A stretch of DNA of 59,926 nucleotides, from NCBI GenBank assembly GCA_944389345.1, contig CALXMA010000005.1:1-59926 (forward strand), read 5' to 3'. Below are positions 10,126 through 57,136 of the stretch, one piece after another (position 1 is the first letter of the stretch; each line of letters begins with the position of its first letter). The notes under the pieces are model-generated. The model did no database searches and was not told where the DNA came from. It worked only from the letters and a program-made list of their open reading frames with translations. The stretch comes from an uncultured Alphaproteobacteria bacterium. Lineage in GTDB: Bacteria > Pseudomonadota > Alphaproteobacteria > Rs-D84. A program made the translations under genes and the position numbers.

Positions 10126-11001
10126 TCACTTGGTCAATTTTTCAACCAAATCATTTAATTGCGTACGCGTTGAAAAAGACAAAACCAACTGGCCGGCACC
10201 ACCACGACGTTCACGCAATTTTACCCCGCAACCCAACGTCGCCGACACACGACGTTCTATATCACGTACGGTTTCGGCATCTATGGATTTGTTCACGTAT
10301 GCGCGACTGGTCGATTTACGCGCCGTTGCACGGACCAGTTTTTCCGTATCAGACACAGATAAATGACCATCTATGATTTGTTGTGCCAATTTTTCTGGGT
10401 CTTGGGCAACCGCAATAGTGCGCGCATGCGATGCGGATATTTTGCCCTGCTCTACTAATTTCTTGACATTATCCGACAAACCGTCCAGACGCATTATATT
10501 ACGTATATAACTGTCCGATTTTCCAATCAGGCGCGCAACATCGCCCAATTCATATCCACATTTTTCCATAATATTTTTGTATGCGTTGGCCTCTTCTATG
10601 GGATTCAGATTTTCACGTTGGACGTTTTCAATCAACGCTATTTCCATCGCGTTTTCAGGTGTAATATTTTTCACCAATGCCGGTATTTCTGTTAATCCCG
10701 CCATTTTACTGGCGCGGAAACGACGTTCGCCTGCGATAATTTCATACATGTACGGACGCCCCGTCACAGAACGCAATAAAATCGGCTGTAAAACGCCCTT
10801 TTCCCGAATGGATGCCGCCAAATCCGCCAATTCAGATTCTGTAAATGTCTTGCGTGGCTGGTCTGGATTTGCACCAATTTGCGACAATGGTATTTTACGA
10901 ACAACAACACGTTCGCCACCCGCCAGCACGGAAAAATCTGGGACACTACCTATTTCTTCCTTTAAGTCTGCCAACCCACGCGCCATTCCAAATTTAGACA
11001 T
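10126..11001 (-). CDS. parB: Chromosome partitioning protein ParB
   Basis: ParB binds parS, loads as a CTP-dependent clamp and positions the origin region with ParA. The 291-residue product has MSKFGMARGLADLKEE at the N-terminus (a ParA-contact region), the CTP-binding box GERRFRASKMAGL, a helix-turn-helix (VARLIGKSDSYIRNIMRL) and a C-terminal dimerisation domain. The ATG at 11001 has an AGGGGA Shine-Dalgarno and lies two bases after the parA stop; a longer in-frame start inside parA is unlikely. Followed by a terminator. Confidence 0.95.
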   Translation of the reverse strand: MSKFGMARGLADLKEEIGSVPDFSVLAGGERVVVRKIPLSQIGANPDQPRKTFTESELADLAASIREKGVLQPILLRSVTGRPYMYEIIAGERRFRASKMAGLTEIPALVKNITPENAMEIALIENVQRENLNPIEEANAYKNIMEKCGYELGDVARLIGKSDSYIRNIMRLDGLSDNVKKLVEQGKISASHARTIAVAQDPEKLAQQIIDGHLSVSDTEKLVRATARKSTSRAYVNKSIDAETVRDIERRVSATLGCGVKLRERRGGAGQLVLSFSTRTQLNDLVEKLTK

Positions 11002-11003
11002 TA

Positions 11004-11777
11004 TTATTCCCCTTTTTCTAAGCGTTCTACAACCTCGGTCGCAACACGTAAATACGCCTGGGCGCCGGGACAATCAAAATCATAAAACAACGCCGGAATA
11101 CCATGACTGGGTGCCTCGGACACGCGGACATTTCGTGGAATAACCGTTTTGAATACGGCATCACCAAACGTCTTGCGTACGTCTTCTTCGGCGGTACGTG
11201 TCTGGCCATAGCGTTTGTCGTACATAGTTAATAAAAATCCCAATACAGATAAATCCGGGTTCCATTTGTTTTTTATTTCGCGTACGGAATTTACCAAATG
11301 ACTGATACCCTGTAATGATAAAAATTCACACTGCAACGGTATTAGAACATTGTTCGCCGTCGTCAGTGCATTCAATGTAACAAACCCCATCGCCGGCGGA
11401 CAATCCAACAATATATAATCATAGTATTCATATAACGGCGCCAATGCATCACGCAGACGATATTCACGATTATCCAAATCATACAGTTCTGCTTCGGCCC
11501 CGGCCATCATCATAGACGACGGCATCAGGTGCAACCCCGGTGTCGCGGTTGTTAAAATATTGTCCTGGGCCGTGCCGTTTCCCATAATAACATCATATAC
11601 ATTTTGACGATATGCCGAACGCACAAAACCCAACCCAGTACTGGCATTGCCCTGGGAATCTAAATCTATTAATAAAACGCGCTTTTTTATCGACGCCAAT
11701 GACGCGCCTAAATTTATCGCGGTTGTCGTTTTACCAACACCGCCCTTTTGATTTGCAAATGCAATTATTTCTGCCAT
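11004..11777 (-). CDS. parA: Chromosome partitioning ATPase ParA (Soj)
   Basis: The 257-residue product has the deviant Walker A KGGVGKTTT (residues 11-19), Walker A' region LLIDLDSQGNAS, and the switch motif YILLDCPPAMGF, all typical of chromosomal Soj/ParA. It drives ParB-parS segregation using DNA-bound ATP dimers. GGGGAT precedes the ATG. In many alphaproteobacteria the order is mnmG-rsmG-parA-parB; here rsmG is upstream but an exported HExxH protein gene, in the opposite orientation, is inserted between them, and mnmG is 20 kb away. Confidence 0.96.
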   Translation of the reverse strand: MAEIIAFANQKGGVGKTTTAINLGASLASIKKRVLLIDLDSQGNASTGLGFVRSAYRQNVYDVIMGNGTAQDNILTTATPGLHLMPSSMMMAGAEAELYDLDNREYRLRDALAPLYEYYDYILLDCPPAMGFVTLNALTTANNVLIPLQCEFLSLQGISHLVNSVREIKNKWNPDLSVLGFLLTMYDKRYGQTRTAEEDVRKTFGDAVFKTVIPRNVRVSEAPSHGIPALFYDFDCPGAQAYLRVATEVVERLEKGE

Positions 11778-12903: not shown

Positions 12904-13460
12904 TACCGGTCTTTTTTGATAATTGTAATAAAACCGTCGCCGGTACGTGATGGTATTAATTCGTAATTGAATTTATATTTACGTTTCGCAACATCAATTT
13001 CGGCCGGTATTTCCCGGCCTTTTAATAAATATAAAGGCCGGCCCGTTTTACCAACATAATCCAATATTTTAACCAGTGGTGCAAACGCACGCGCCGTAAA
13101 CACGATTTTATTATCGTGGGCCAGGGTGGGGATGTAATTTTCCAAACGCCCGTGATATATTGTTAAATTATCCAATTTTAATTCATCACGAACCGCGGTC
13201 AAAAATGCAACCTTTTTACCAACAGATTCTGTACACGTAACGCGCCAGCCCAGTATTGCCAACACAACGCCGGGGAAACCGGCGCCACTGCCCAAATCAA
13301 TAACGTGCGCGTCGGGTGGTAAAACATCCGCCAACTGGGCAGAATCCGCGATATGACGCGTTTCTATGTCATTCAGTGTACTGGGCGCGACCAGGTTCAT
13401 TCGCGTTGACCATTCGCGTAGCATTTCAGCATACTTAGTAAATTTTTCTTTATTATTCAT
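12903..13460 (-). CDS. rsmG: 16S rRNA (guanine527-N7)-methyltransferase RsmG
   Basis: RsmG methylates G527 of 16S rRNA. The 185-residue product has the SAM-binding loop VIDLGSGAGFPGVVLAILG and later VFTARAFAPLVKILDY. This is slightly shorter than the usual 205-215. The ATG at 13460 is only 26 bases from a divergent gene. An extended -10 (TGC then TACAAT) ends 7 bases before the ATG and no Shine-Dalgarno is visible, so the message may be leaderless. Confidence 0.93.
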   Translation of the reverse strand: MNNKEKFTKYAEMLREWSTRMNLVAPSTLNDIETRHIADSAQLADVLPPDAHVIDLGSGAGFPGVVLAILGWRVTCTESVGKKVAFLTAVRDELKLDNLTIYHGRLENYIPTLAHDNKIVFTARAFAPLVKILDYVGKTGRPLYLLKGREIPAEIDVAKRKYKFNYELIPSRTGDGFITIIKKDR

Positions 13461-26455: not shown

Positions 26456-26706
26456 GGGACCGGGTCATAACCAAACCCGCCACCCGGCCGACACCGCAAT
26501 ATACGGCGCATTCCCATGATTGCGCCACGTAGCAAACCATATTTCTGGATTGCGGTTGCGGTATATTCACTGCACGTGGGGATAAACCGGCATGTGGCGC
26601 GCCCGCCAATGTACGGCGATATGGCCCGCTGGTACAGGTGTATCATACCAATTGCAACATGGCGCGGTATGGATGTGATTTTATTTTTTCTTGCGGGATT
26701 TTTCAT
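26452..26706 (-). CDS. yidD: Membrane protein insertion efficiency factor YidD
   Basis: The 84-residue product has the YidD signature: IHLYQRAISPYIGGRATCRFIPTC split over residues 23-46, SEYTATAIQKYG and the C-terminal RCRPGGGFGYDPVP. YidD is a small amphipathic membrane-associated protein helping YidC-dependent insertion. It overlaps rnpA by 26 bases. The usual rpmH upstream and yidC downstream are missing; accBC follow instead. Confidence 0.92.
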   Translation of the reverse strand: MKNPARKNKITSIPRHVAIGMIHLYQRAISPYIGGRATCRFIPTCSEYTATAIQKYGLLRGAIMGMRRILRCRPGGGFGYDPVP

Positions 26707-27034
26707 ACGTTCTTTTTATGTAATGTAATGCCTTTTTCATGGCCGTACGCCCATCTGTACGCCCAGAAAACAACAGCGGTCGGCGCGCAATAAATACATA
26801 GTCCAGGTCATTACACATCTGGTTTTCATTAAACCGAATCCAATCACGCAACATACGCTTGGCACGGTTTCTGTCCACGGCCAATTTGAATGTTTTTTTT
26901 GTCACAATCAGTCCATATCGGGCATCATCACCGAACCGTGCAGGGCGCGCCCGTACAAAAAACATCGCGCAACGCGCGTTAAAATCATCGGGGCCAACTA
27001 AAAAATCATCATGCTTCTTTATAGTGTTTCTCAT
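26681..27034 (-). CDS. rnpA: Ribonuclease P protein component
   Basis: RnpA assists RNase P RNA in 5' tRNA processing. The 117-residue product has the RNR box VDRNRAKRMLRDWIR, preceded by RYGLIVTKKTFKLA. rpmH does not precede it. The start ATG (27034) lies 7 bases after an extended -10 element and has no Shine-Dalgarno, suggesting a leaderless message. Divergent from mreB. Confidence 0.92.
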   Translation of the reverse strand: MRNTIKKHDDFLVGPDDFNARCAMFFVRARPARFGDDARYGLIVTKKTFKLAVDRNRAKRMLRDWIRFNENQMCNDLDYVFIARRPLLFSGRTDGRTAMKKALHYIKRTYEKSRKKK

Positions 27035-33198: not shown

Positions 33199-34848
33199 AT
33201 GACAGAATTTGACGTTATCGTTATTGGTGGGGGACACGCCGGGATTGAGGCCGCCACGGCCGCGGCCCGGCGTGGTGCACGTACATTATTGTTGACCCAG
33301 CGTGAATATGATTTGGGCGCCATGTCATGTAATCCGTCAATCGGCGGGCCGGGCAAATCACAAATGGTGGCCGAAATTGACGCGATGGGTGGCGTTATGG
33401 GGCGTGCGGCCGATGCGTCTGGGATACATTTTCGTACATTGAACGCGTCACATGGTGCCGCAACCCAGGCATTGCGCGCCCAGATTGACCGCGAATTATA
33501 TCACAACGCAATTGTTAATATTCTGAATGGATATAAAAATCTGACCGTGCAATTTTGTATGGTTAAATCACTGGACATAGAAAAAAAGATTGTTAATGGC
33601 GAATTTTCTGCGCGGGCAATCGTGTTAACAACGGGGACTTTTCTGCGCGGATTGGTCACACGTGGGGCGGAAAAAATCCCATCTGGGCGTATTATGGACG
33701 ATGGCGAATTCCAGGCGCCCGATGTAAATATTTCAGGCGTATTGGCACGGGCCGGTTTTAATATATTACGTCTGAAAACAGGAACACCCGCACGCATTGA
33801 CAAATCATCCATAGATTATTCTGTATGCGAAGTGCAACCAGGCGATGTGCCACACGATTGGTTCAGTGCACCCAACCCAAATAATAACTATGACGCGGTA
33901 TGCTATATAACACATACAACACAAAAAACGCATGACATCATACGCGAAAATATCCGTAATGCACCAATGTATAACGGCGATATTCAGGGAACAGGACCAC
34001 GGTACTGTCCCAGCATCGAAGACAAGGTTATGCGTTTCCCAGAACATACGTCGCATCATGTGTTTCTGGAACCCGAAGGTATAAACAGCAATTTAATTTA
34101 TCCAAATGGTATTTCAACCAGTTTCGGCGCAGATATCCAAGATATATGGATTCGCACAATACCCGGACTGGAAAACGCACATATCGTACGTTATGGGTAC
34201 GCAATTGAATATGATGCAATCGATGCACGCGCATTGCGTGATACACTGGAATCAAAAGATATCCCGGGACTGTTTTTCGCGGGACAAATAAACGGGACAT
34301 CTGGGTATGAAGAAGCCGCCGCCCAGGGCATCGTTGCGGGTGCAAATGCCGCCGCGCGCGCATTGGGACACGCGCCCCTGCAACTGGACAGAACAAATGC
34401 AATGATTGGTGTGTTGATTGATGATATAACAACACTGGGGGTGGACGAACCGTATCGTATGTTTACATCGCGCGCAGAATACAGACTGTCGTTGCGGGCC
34501 GATAATGCAATTGCCCGACTGGGAAATATGGCGGTGGAACTGGGACTGTTAAGTGCGGTGGCGCGTGATGAAAAATATGAATATCGCGCAGATAAAATCC
34601 GCGAAAACGACAAATTCTATGCCGGATATATCCAGCGCAATGAACGTGAAATCGCCGCGTACAGACGTGATGCGGAATTAAAAATACCGTCGCATTTTGA
34701 ATATCGTGGATTACCGGGGCTGACAAATGAACTGGTTGAAAAATTGACCGCGGTGCGCCCGGAAAATATCGCCGACCTGGGGCGCATTCCGGGAATGACA
34801 CCGGCCGGTATTATGGTTGTTTTACGCAAAATAAAATGCGGTAATTAA
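33199..34848 (+). CDS. mnmG: tRNA uridine-5-carboxymethylaminomethyl enzyme MnmG, shortened
   Basis: MnmG (GidA), with MnmE, modifies U34 of several tRNAs. The 549-residue product has the FAD loop [14 protein letters not shown], the conserved cysteine motif [14 protein letters not shown] (Cys44), [18 protein letters not shown] with the second catalytic cysteine, and the C-terminal PGMTPAGI. It is about 70-80 residues shorter than usual; the gap falls in the helical insertion between [12 protein letters not shown] and [12 protein letters not shown]. All catalytic parts remain. rsmG, its classical neighbour, is 20 kb away. Confidence 0.95.
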
Positions 34849-53962: not shown

Positions 53963-54097
53963 TTATTTTTTTCTGAAACCCTGTTTTGCCTTTAACTTAG
54001 GATTATTAGGGTCAATCAGGATAACCTGTTTACCACGGCGAATTTGTTTTACATTACCGCGTTTCTTCCAGGCACGTAATGAACTTAAAAACTTCAT
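53963..54097 (-). CDS. rpmJ: 50S ribosomal protein bL36, cysteine-free form
   Basis: A 44-residue protein starting MKFLSSLRAWKKRGNVKQI with LIDPNNPKLKAKQG near the end, matching bL36. The zinc-ligand Cys/His positions of the classic form are absent, as in the C-minus paralogue, and there is an extra FRKK tail. AAAGGA precedes the ATG. Bounded by a terminator and the AT-rich region. Confidence 0.85.
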   Translation of the reverse strand: MKFLSSLRAWKKRGNVKQIRRGKQVILIDPNNPKLKAKQGFRKK

Positions 54098-54192
54098 ATC
54101 TAAATCCTTTGTTGTGTGGTCATTATAAACAGTTTTTGTTAAAAATCAAATACTATTATTATATTTGTAGTTGTAGTAGGCCCTGTTTGTTA

Positions 54193-54387
54193 TGTTGAAA
54201 AGCGTTTTTAGTTTTTTATCAACAAGTTTTCAACAATTTTTTGCCGGATTTTTGCGGTGTTTGCGAAATGTGTTGAAAAAGTATGCCTGATAATTAACAG
54301 TTGAAATTGCCGATCATTTTCAACATTTTTAACATTTTTGCCGGTATGCTTTTTATACTTGTTGAAAATTGTTGAAATTGTTATAAT
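54193..54387. other. Cluster of TTTTCAACA 9-mers, candidate oriC or regulator array
   Basis: Non-coding stretch 54098-54418. TGTTGAAAA (reverse complement TTTTCAACA) occurs at 54193-54201, 54271-54279 and 54360-54368; TTTTCAACA at 54227-54235 and 54317-54325; TTATCAACA, one mismatch from a DnaA box, at 54216-54224; degenerate copies at 54299-54307 and 54370-54378. The DNA around is T- and A-rich. The window also holds parAB, recF, rnpA, mnmG and rsmG, often origin-proximal. Alternatively the repeats control the virB3 promoter they overlap. Confidence 0.5.
54359..54387 (+). promoter_or_regulatory. Promoter of virB3-virB4 operon
   Basis: TTGTTG (54359-54364), 17 bases, consensus TATAAT (54382-54387), overlapping two of the GTTGAAA repeats. 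The leader carries GGGGGAGGG before the virB3 ATG. Confidence 0.6.
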
Positions 54388-54418
54388 TCAGGCAACAGGG
54401 GGAGGGTCTTTCCATATA

Positions 54419-54715
54419 ATGAGACAACAAGTATTAAAAGCATTGGCAAATCCGGCGCGCATATTTTATGTGCCTTATTCGTTGGCCGTGATTAATTTTG
54501 CCGTGCAATTCATTGTTTTTATTGTGCTTTTTATTATCGGGTTGGCGGTATATGGTGTGGATTCTGGGATTTACCCGTTGTATTTTATGGTGTCTGTTAT
54601 CATAGTTCATGCAATTTTGGCCGTGTTTTCCCGGCGGGAACCACAACTGGGCCAGATTGTGGCGGCGAAAATACAACTGATGAAGAAAAAAATACCTGGG
54701 CGGTTGGCGGCGTAA
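54419..54715 (+). CDS. virB3: VirB3-like type IV secretion protein
   Basis: A 98-residue protein with two membrane helices (VINFAVQFIVFIVLFIIGLAV and LYFMVSVIIVHAILAVF) after a short N-terminus containing LKALANPARIFYVPYS, which fits the VirB3 fold. Start ATG 54419 has GGAGGG. Immediately upstream of virB4, the conserved VirB3-VirB4 order. VirB3 sits in the inner membrane part of the T4SS. Confidence 0.85.
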   Translation: MRQQVLKALANPARIFYVPYSLAVINFAVQFIVFIVLFIIGLAVYGVDSGIYPLYFMVSVIIVHAILAVFSRREPQLGQIVAAKIQLMKKKIPGRLAA

Positions 54716-54718
54716 GAT

Positions 54719-57136
54719 ATGAATGGATTTATACAACATTTTGCAGGTGGTGAATTTCCTTTGACGGCGATAATACTGGTTATGGCCGTGGTGTTCGTTT
54801 TTATTATTCTGATGATGTATTTACCGGTGTTGACCAAAAAGATATTTCCTAAATTCGGATATGTCAGATATTCACAGTATTTACCTTTTGGCACAGTGTA
54901 TACTGATAACACGATGACGTTGACCGATGGTGGTATTATTCGTGTTTACCGCGTGTCCGGTGTTCAAACCAGTATGCAAGATAATGCCACACGTGAAAAA
55001 TTCTTGGATTTACGGGCGCAATTGTTTAATCAAATTCGCGACCCAAATGTTGTTTTACGCTTCTATACCGTTCGTGATGCGGTTGGGGAAAACACGGACT
55101 ATGAATTTGACCAGCCTGTTTTGCAAAAAATCTATGATAAATGGAAAAGGCAGGGACTGCGCATATTTACAAATAATTATTATATTGTTTTGTCTGTGGG
55201 GGGTACCGGGGCACGTGATAAATTAAATCAATACAGCAGTTATATAGAATCTGTGTTGGCGGCATATCATCCGGTTGTATTACGTAATGATGCCAAGGAT
55301 AATATGGCGCGGTTCTTTGGACGTATTTTGTCCCCAATTTCAAAGCCGTCCCCGGCCGTATGCGACCAAAGTATTGCTGATGTCGCAACGGTTGACGATG
55401 TCGATTTTATGGATAATGGGATTATTCGTTATATTGGTGGCGGACGTCAATCTTTTGCAGTTGCGATTTCGTTCAAGATTTCGCCAGATTATTTGGATGA
55501 AGATTTCTTTGATTCTGTGTCCACAATACAAACAGAAATGATTTGTATGAATGCGTTTGGAATTATGGGCAATGCAGATGTTGAATCTGTGTTGCGTCAA
55601 CGTCGTGCAACCGTCAAAGAAAACGAAGATTCCGCCACAGAACAGATATCCGAGGCGCAATCCGCAATGGATGAAAATATTTCGGGAAATCAGAATCTGG
55701 TTAATTATTATCCTGTGTTTTTAATATTCGGTGCAACGGTTGATGCGTTAACAAAATATATCGAAGAATTTAATAAAATTGCCGCCGCGTTCGGTGTGTC
55801 GCCTATTGTTGAAACATTTGCGTCAAAGGTTTCTTGGTTTTCTTTGATTCCGGGATTTGATGTTTTCCCGCGCAGTTTCAAAATGCTGTCGCGTACCGCC
55901 GCAATCAGTATACCTATGTCCAGTACACCACGTGGGGTGGCGAACTGTGATTGGGGTCCGGGACCATTGGTTGTTTTCCCAACCGCCCAGGGTACACCGT
56001 ATCAATTCCAGTTTCATGTATCAGATAAACCGGCCGCGGTGGCACATACGTTGGCAATTGGTCCAACGGGTGGTGGTAAAACAACTTTGTTCAGTTTCTT
56101 AATCGCGCAATCGTTGCGACATAAACAGTTAAAGGCGTTCTTTTTCGACAGAAACAAGGGTGCGGAAATATTTACTTTGGCCGTGGGCGGAAAATATGTA
56201 ACCATGACGGGTAAAGATAAAAATAAAGCGGATTCCGGGCGGTTTTTAACACATCTGAATCCATTAAAAATGGCCGACAGTCCAGAAAATCGTGCGTTTT
56301 TGCGTCGGTGGTTGGCAATGATTACGGGAAATTCTGATGCCGGGTCCGCAGATGAAATTGCGCGTGCGGTTTCTGTGAATTTTGATTATTTACAGCAATC
56401 GGACAGATTGTTAAAAAATCTGTGGGAAAGTTGTTTTTCATCCGCGGGAAATATGCGACCTGCGTTGAAAAAATGGGTCGATCCATTACAATATGGCGAT
56501 ATATTCAATGAAGATTCTGATACGTTGGATTTGAATGCACGGTTGACCACGTTTGATTTTACAGATATTTTGCAAGACGAAACGTTGGCGCCCGCCGTTA
56601 TTTCATATATTTTACACAGAATTAATAATAATACTGTGGCGGGTGGAAATCCATCGCTGATTATGATTGATGAAACGGCGCCTATGTTGGAAAACAAAAT
56701 GTTCCGTGATAATTTTATCGTTGGTTTGCAAGAAGGACGTAAAAATCGACAGGCGTATATGGTCGCGTTCCAGCGTGCAAATGTGTTAGATAAACTGGGG
56801 ATTGGTGATGTTGTCCGTGGCCAGGCTCAAACCGTGTTGTTTTTCAGAAATCCGGCCGCAGATGCGTCTGATTATCAATATTGGAATTTGAATCCGTTGG
56901 AAATGGCGTTTATCCAGGGCAAGGCGTATCCGACATTAAAACGGGCCGTGCTGTTATCACGTCCGGTTACGGGCGAATCTGTGATATTAAATACAGAACT
57001 GGGCGGATTGGGCAATTTGTTGCGTCTGTTTGAATCTGGGCGGTCGTCGGTGTTATTGGCCGAAGAATTATATGCACAATATGGAAATAACTTTGTGGCC
57101 GAATATTTGAAAAAACAAGGGGCGGGTGATTTATAA
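54719..57136 (+). CDS. virB4: VirB4-family type IV secretion ATPase
   Basis: VirB4 energises T4SS assembly and transfer. The 805-residue product has Walker A GPTGGGKTT near residue 447, Walker B SLIMIDETAPML near 646, VGLQEGRKNRQAYMVAFQ and the C-terminal AEELYAQYGNNFVAEYL. Unlike classical soluble VirB4 it begins with a strong membrane helix (TAIILVMAVVFVFIILMMYLP split, residues about 16-36). Three bases after virB3. Other virB genes are not in the window. Confidence 0.94.
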   Translation: MNGFIQHFAGGEFPLTAIILVMAVVFVFIILMMYLPVLTKKIFPKFGYVRYSQYLPFGTVYTDNTMTLTDGGIIRVYRVSGVQTSMQDNATREKFLDLRAQLFNQIRDPNVVLRFYTVRDAVGENTDYEFDQPVLQKIYDKWKRQGLRIFTNNYYIVLSVGGTGARDKLNQYSSYIESVLAAYHPVVLRNDAKDNMARFFGRILSPISKPSPAVCDQSIADVATVDDVDFMDNGIIRYIGGGRQSFAVAISFKISPDYLDEDFFDSVSTIQTEMICMNAFGIMGNADVESVLRQRRATVKENEDSATEQISEAQSAMDENISGNQNLVNYYPVFLIFGATVDALTKYIEEFNKIAAAFGVSPIVETFASKVSWFSLIPGFDVFPRSFKMLSRTAAISIPMSSTPRGVANCDWGPGPLVVFPTAQGTPYQFQFHVSDKPAAVAHTLAIGPTGGGKTTLFSFLIAQSLRHKQLKAFFFDRNKGAEIFTLAVGGKYVTMTGKDKNKADSGRFLTHLNPLKMADSPENRAFLRRWLAMITGNSDAGSADEIARAVSVNFDYLQQSDRLLKNLWESCFSSAGNMRPALKKWVDPLQYGDIFNEDSDTLDLNARLTTFDFTDILQDETLAPAVISYILHRINNNTVAGGNPSLIMIDETAPMLENKMFRDNFIVGLQEGRKNRQAYMVAFQRANVLDKLGIGDVVRGQAQTVLFFRNPAADASDYQYWNLNPLEMAFIQGKAYPTLKRAVLLSRPVTGESVILNTELGGLGNLLRLFESGRSSVLLAEELYAQYGNNFVAEYLKKQGAGDL

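Follow-up and report, generated by a model that had tools for sequence, protein, structure and literature searches.

Does the gap between a ribosomal protein L36 gene and virB3 hold the origin of replication (oriC) of the ‘Ca. Enterousia’ chromosome? The window, i.e., the whole stretch of 59,926 nucleotides analyzed here, is contig C5 of a 23-contig ‘Ca. Enterousia’ MAG (894 kb, 98.8% complete) from the order Rs-D84, Alphaproteobacteria. With the VirB4 protein of the window as query, close relatives were found in Candidatus Enterousia, with an identity of up to 88%. Enterousia has been assigned to this alphaproteobacterial order; its genomes are described as reduced, and it probably depends on a host or partner (PMC12306168). 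We found no account of an L36-virB3 origin in the literature consulted on Ca. Enterousia, and the cited paper mentions neither oriC nor dnaA.

An initial annotation had proposed a candidate chromosome origin in this gap, referring in part to a gene set typical of origin regions. The listed genes are indeed present in the window: parB (10129-11073), parA (11007-11777), rsmG (12906-13460), recF (~22.7-24.0 kb), rnpA (26684-27034), and mnmG (33199-34845). They are located 20-45 kb from the array and are non-contiguous, and thus lend weak support to an origin by themselves. Despite the parAB genes at 10129-11777, no canonical parS (TGTTTCACGTGAAACA, up to two mismatches) was found in the window. 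The dnaA gene is distant from the array, being located on contig C10 in the window's genome and at 443.6 kb in the relative OX097180 (G001), a single contig of 1,001,484 bases that was used for the whole-chromosome tests. A DprA-like gene, recognized by eye from its translation, adjoins dnaA on the same strand in both genomes (L009 and L140).

The box array and its conservation

Five exact 9-mers, one variant and two degenerate copies had been described in AT-rich non-coding DNA, and all their positions were confirmed (Table 1). The array spans 54193-54378, in intergenic DNA with an A+T content of 70% versus 56% for the window. A further one-mismatch box is located at 54137 on the minus strand, outside the initially delimited region (54193-54387). 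The pattern TTWTCAACA occurs six times in the gap, against a mean of 0.036 and a maximum of two in dinucleotide-preserving shuffles of the same intergenic DNA (n = 20,000, none of which reaches six), and TTWTNAACA occurs nine times against a shuffle mean of 0.25. Elsewhere in the window the exact 9-mer appears only as single copies, as had been noted, four in number (1704, 8733, 39439, and 39721, two of them 282 bp apart), and there is no second box cluster. Counted over whole genomes (the window's genome, G000, and G001), TTTTCAACA has 56 copies versus 13 for the reversed pattern and TTWTCMACA has 141 versus 46. Both patterns are thus common beyond the origin, and these counts do not separate composition from function.

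Table 1. Features of the L36-virB3 gap and its flanks (positions in the window).
Feature	Position	Strand	Basis
Whole candidate oriC, L36-virB3 intergenic, 321 bp	54098-54418		Box excess over shuffles, 78-species layout, corrected GC3-skew switch
Candidate duplex-unwinding element: T-rich top strand, TTATT/TTGT/TWG (TTG-TAG-TTG-TAG-TAG), ends at GC-rich patch	54150-54182	+	At least two TT[AG]T in 78/78
DnaA box 1, exact TTTTCAACA, adjoins unwinding stretch	54193-54201	-	TTTTCAACA in 54/78 species
DnaA box 2, TTATCAACA	54216-54224	+	Family consensus TTATNAACA
DnaA box 3, exact TTTTCAACA	54227-54235	+	TTTT(C/T)AACA in 77/78
DnaA box 4, exact TTTTCAACA	54271-54279	-	78-species alignment
DnaA box 5, exact TTTTCAACA	54317-54325	+	78-species alignment
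Weaker box 6, TTTTTAACA, one mismatch	54326-54334	+	Core kept in 78 species
DnaA box 7, exact TTTTCAACA	54360-54368	-	TTTTCAACA in 71/78
DnaA box 8, ATTTCAACA, one mismatch, tandem with box 7	54370-54378	-	Identical in 66/76
Candidate virB3-virB4 promoter: extended -10 TGTTATAAT (54379-54387), possible -35 TTGTTG (54359-54364)	54359-54387	+	Near-invariant in 78 species
Left flank, gene for ribosomal protein L36 of type B (YkgO-like)	53963-54097	-	NCBIfam NF002021 E 8e-6, Pfam L36 E 2e-4, both below cut-off
virB3, right flank	54419-54715	+	Pfam VirB3, 24.6 bits (cut-off 23.9)
virB4	54719-57136	+	Pfam CagE_TrbE_VirB E 1.9e-12

The distances and orientations of the boxes upstream of virB4 are the same in all 80 relatives fetched, with one to seven exact copies each. 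Comparison of the 9-mer in sister genomes, which the initial annotation had suggested, was based on an alignment of the 78 sequences with enough upstream DNA (window included), and place and orientation are kept in all of these species. Pooling five boxes over the 78 species gives the consensus T T T/A T (C/T) A A C A: position 6 is A in 98.5% and position 8 is C in 97%, position 5 is free (C/T/A), and position 3 is mainly T/A. The C at position 6 that canonical TTWTNCACA requires is thus absent from the consensus of these five boxes in the 78 species. Boxes 7 and 8 and the neighboring TGTTATAAT are almost invariant across the alignment. Of 201 genomes from the order, 129 contain a single copy of a 30-bp signature taken from this end of the array and none contains two; the class members sampled from other orders all lack it. 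The more distant genera of the family keep the array, with T being commoner at position 5. It is also present in G177, which belongs to another family (f127), and no array was found upstream of virB4 in the examined members of families f126, f128, and f129.

DnaA residues and the changed box code

The bases of the E. coli box (TTWTNCACA) are contacted by DnaA residues 399, 423, 432-435, 438, and 439 (PMC5043019). R399 recognizes the TTA half from the minor groove, the helix starting at residue 434 (with T435) reads TnCACA, and both T435M and R399A are defective (PMC5742627). Since the initial annotation had remarked on a non-standard box consensus and pointed to domain IV of DnaA, we compared these residues, numbered by their E. 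coli equivalents after alignment to 1J1V. The expected deviation was found: in all 38 family proteins parsed, A stands in place of T435 and Y in place of H439, and P423 has given way to T, S, A, V, or N, with R399 and H434 kept in the same 38 proteins. Among 30 other alphaproteobacterial DnaA proteins, P423 and T435 are retained in all and H439 in 29, a contrast that may be somewhat sharpened because these 30 were the best-scoring of a broad draw.

TTTTCAACA and TTTTCCACA contrast at box position 6, with A in TTTTCAACA, and this C-to-A change falls in the half that is read by the replaced DnaA residues. The two changes fit each other, but the evidence is correlative, and the changed box can be read in more than one way, including A+T drift. 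We lean slightly toward the one in which replacement of residues 423, 435, and 439 switched position 6 from C to A throughout the origin, creating an origin with a non-canonical code and a T4SS promoter wired into it. The box code would then have drifted from TTWTNCACA to TTWTNAACA together with these residues. It is also possible, albeit rather doubtful, that the origin is correctly placed and that its consensus changed by mutational drift under A+T pressure, unrelated to the DnaA residues. The intergenic DNA is indeed A+T-rich, and DnaA of f126, a sister family in the same order, has A435 (often with Y439, P423 being kept) without a known matching origin. Drift does not readily account, however, for a pattern in which fixation to A (98.5%) is confined to position 6, with 97% C retained at position 8 and position 5 left free, nor for DnaA changes among the very residues reading that box half. 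As f126 combines A435 with the lack of an array upstream of virB4, its origin not having been found, the link between protein and box is correlative only. A search for the f126 origin via tandem boxes yielded matches inside coding sequence (L290 and L291) and was discarded.

The motif TT(T/A)TCAACA has been proposed as the DnaA box of mollicutes, although it is sparse in phytoplasmas and its role there has been doubted (PMC3322544). This is the same 9-mer in a distant phylum, which in Enterousia forms a conserved array, so the box change would be convergent. A shift linked to DnaA would represent a natural change in box specificity, spread over ~80+ related genomes and tied to a residue (Thr435) that was singled out by E. 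coli biochemistry.

Two further observations concern DnaA. In three related species, the DnaA proteins L144, L156, and L162 (of G009, G010, and G015, respectively) have Asn at the place of an almost universal Asp (D433 in E. coli), so that RDHAT has become RNHAT. The C-terminal DnaA domain (PF08299) has no match in three members of the order (G178, which is 97% complete, G352, and G364) and in four other genomes of the class (G030 and G150, both sampled f8 members, G045, and G097), where DnaA may be divergent or missing.

The candidate unwinding stretch and comparison with known origins

The top strand left of box 1 reads TTATTATATTTGTAGTTGTAGTAGGCCC, and all 78 sequences contain at least two TT[AG]T motifs at this side. 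Judged by sequence only, the conserved T-rich TTATT/TTGT stretch next to the box qualifies as a candidate duplex-unwinding element. The parts thus follow each other as T-rich stretch, GC-rich patch, box array, and candidate promoter over the last two boxes. The trinucleotide rhythm of the stretch is TTG/TTT, and the window and a few relatives also have TAG. In 29 of the 78 sequences, a second box (at most one mismatch) occupies the nine bases immediately left of box 1, giving a tandem box pair, an arrangement found in many origins. DnaA of E. coli depends on TTGT and TTATT to hold the melted strand (PMC5742627), and the corresponding motifs in B. subtilis are TA(A/G) trinucleotides (PMC10316083). 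The stretch found here therefore looks nearer to the E. coli mode, with a trace of the B. subtilis mode.

The likeness to E. coli oriC extends to the layout, in which a top-strand T-rich TTATT/TTGT stretch is followed by a reverse-oriented box and an array in both orientations, to the absence of dnaA from the origin, and to box positions 5 (free) and 3 (mainly T/A). Unlike E. coli oriC, the Enterousia origin has A instead of C at box position 6, is flanked by the L36 and virB3 genes, and contains no canonical IHF site; GANTC was not found in the window's origin region either. The origins of Caulobacter and Rickettsiales are located at the hemE-COG1806 or hemE-COG1253 boundary (PMC1914354). They share with the present region an alphaproteobacterial host, an A+T-rich intergenic location and a few DnaA boxes, but differ in their flanking genes (there is no hemE beside the Enterousia array) and in their box (TTATNCACA versus TTWTNAACA). 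The CtrA site TTAA-N7-TTAA is absent from the window's region and is present in 23 of the 78 relatives.

The Bacillus-type basal unwinding system has a box, a GC-rich patch and a trinucleotide-periodic stretch (PMC8287927), here found in the same order and on the same strand, and the tandem pair at box 1 in many Enterousia relatives is a further likeness. The Enterousia trinucleotides are mostly TTG/TTT, however, and three consecutive NAN are absent beside box 1 in most species. The published rule for DnaA-trios asks for a run of three or more 3'-NAN-5' on the proper strand, no farther than 16 bp from a DnaA box (PMC8287927). We rejected such a system here, as at most two are found beside box 1 in 68 of the 78 species; the four consecutive NAN of the window are at another place, with a weaker box.

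Chromosomal position, strand skew, and function

In the complete chromosome of G001, the densest box cluster (nine boxes per 250 bases, allowing one mismatch) is located at 597.1-597.3 kb, which is the orthologous place. It is followed by an independent place at 598.8 kb with four boxes, and by places with three elsewhere. Repeats upstream of many unrelated promoters would have spoken against an origin; G001 has only this dense cluster, and the 30-bp signature is found at most once per genome in 201 genomes. Canonical tandem boxes (TGTGNAWAA pairs) were also considered as a sign of a second origin, but are merely scattered pairs that suggest none.

The raw cumulative skew of G001 has its minimum at 635 kb, on a flat floor that starts at 595 kb. 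We therefore fitted the per-gene third-codon-position (GC3) skew with terms for gene strand and replichore. This corrected fit places the origin of G001 at 600-601 kb (support 596-603 kb), versus 597.1 kb for the cluster, and the terminus at ~150 kb. On 200-kb stretches of four other genomes, the corrected switch and the cluster are located at 99.0 and 99.6 kb (G002), 98.5 and 98.8 kb (G011), 98.5 and 99.3 kb (G015), and 99.5 and 99.8 kb (G003), respectively. The two thus lie within 1 kb of each other in these four genomes and ~4 kb apart in G001. The change-point was unmoved when the stretches were re-cut off-centre (0-130 or 70-200 kb), and the sign of the switch fits an origin rather than a terminus. 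In the window alone, the corrected fit peaks at 54.0 kb with a broad support of 12.5-55.5 kb. We should note that raw cumulative GC skew is a misleading locator here, with minima 10-40 kb off the cluster. Gene orientation explains this offset, since correction for gene strand brings the fit to the cluster. The raw minima could have been taken for the distant skew switch that was named as a counter-argument to the origin, but the corrected switch is at the cluster.

Could DnaA, or some other regulator, instead use the array as an operator to control virB3-virB4 (or the L36 gene), with replication starting elsewhere? The array is located between divergent genes, and its boxes 7 and 8 overlap the virB3 promoter with its near-invariant extended -10. 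Both would fit, but we consider this very unlikely, since the array covers 185 bp, well past one promoter, lies next to a T-rich melting stretch that is conserved, and is where the corrected skew switches in five genomes. More improbable still is a locus near the origin that titrates DnaA or has a regulatory role (datA/DARS-like): clustered DnaA boxes alone would fit it, but no other cluster on the entire G001 chromosome is as dense, and this one has a candidate unwinding stretch beside it and matches the skew switch to ~1 kb in four genomes.

The origin originally proposed thus gains support from the conserved and unique array, from the position of the corrected skew switch, and from the replaced DnaA residues. 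With a probability of about 94%, positions 54098-54418 represent the oriC of Ca. Enterousia, comprising a putative DnaA-bound TTWTNAACA array, a melting stretch, a drifted code, and a promoter link. As far as can be read from the DNA, the L36-virB3 gap is a relocated oriC with a shifted DnaA code. DnaA, encoded elsewhere, would bind the fixed array through domain IV, oligomerize leftward from box 1, and melt the adjoining T-rich stretch, gripping the top strand via the TTATT/TTGT/TWG motifs. Helicases would load on the melted stretch and two forks would depart. Because boxes 7 and 8 overlap the conserved promoter, DnaA bound to them probably also modulates transcription of virB3-virB4.

An origin of this kind would be overlooked or wrongly placed in searches that rely on TTATCCACA and raw GC skew. 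Knowing the Enterousia origin makes growth-rate estimates from metagenome coverage accessible for a common uncultured gut lineage. The virB3-virB4 genes are linked to the origin in all family members examined, and by remaining beside it the T4SS operon stays where gene dosage on the chromosome is highest.
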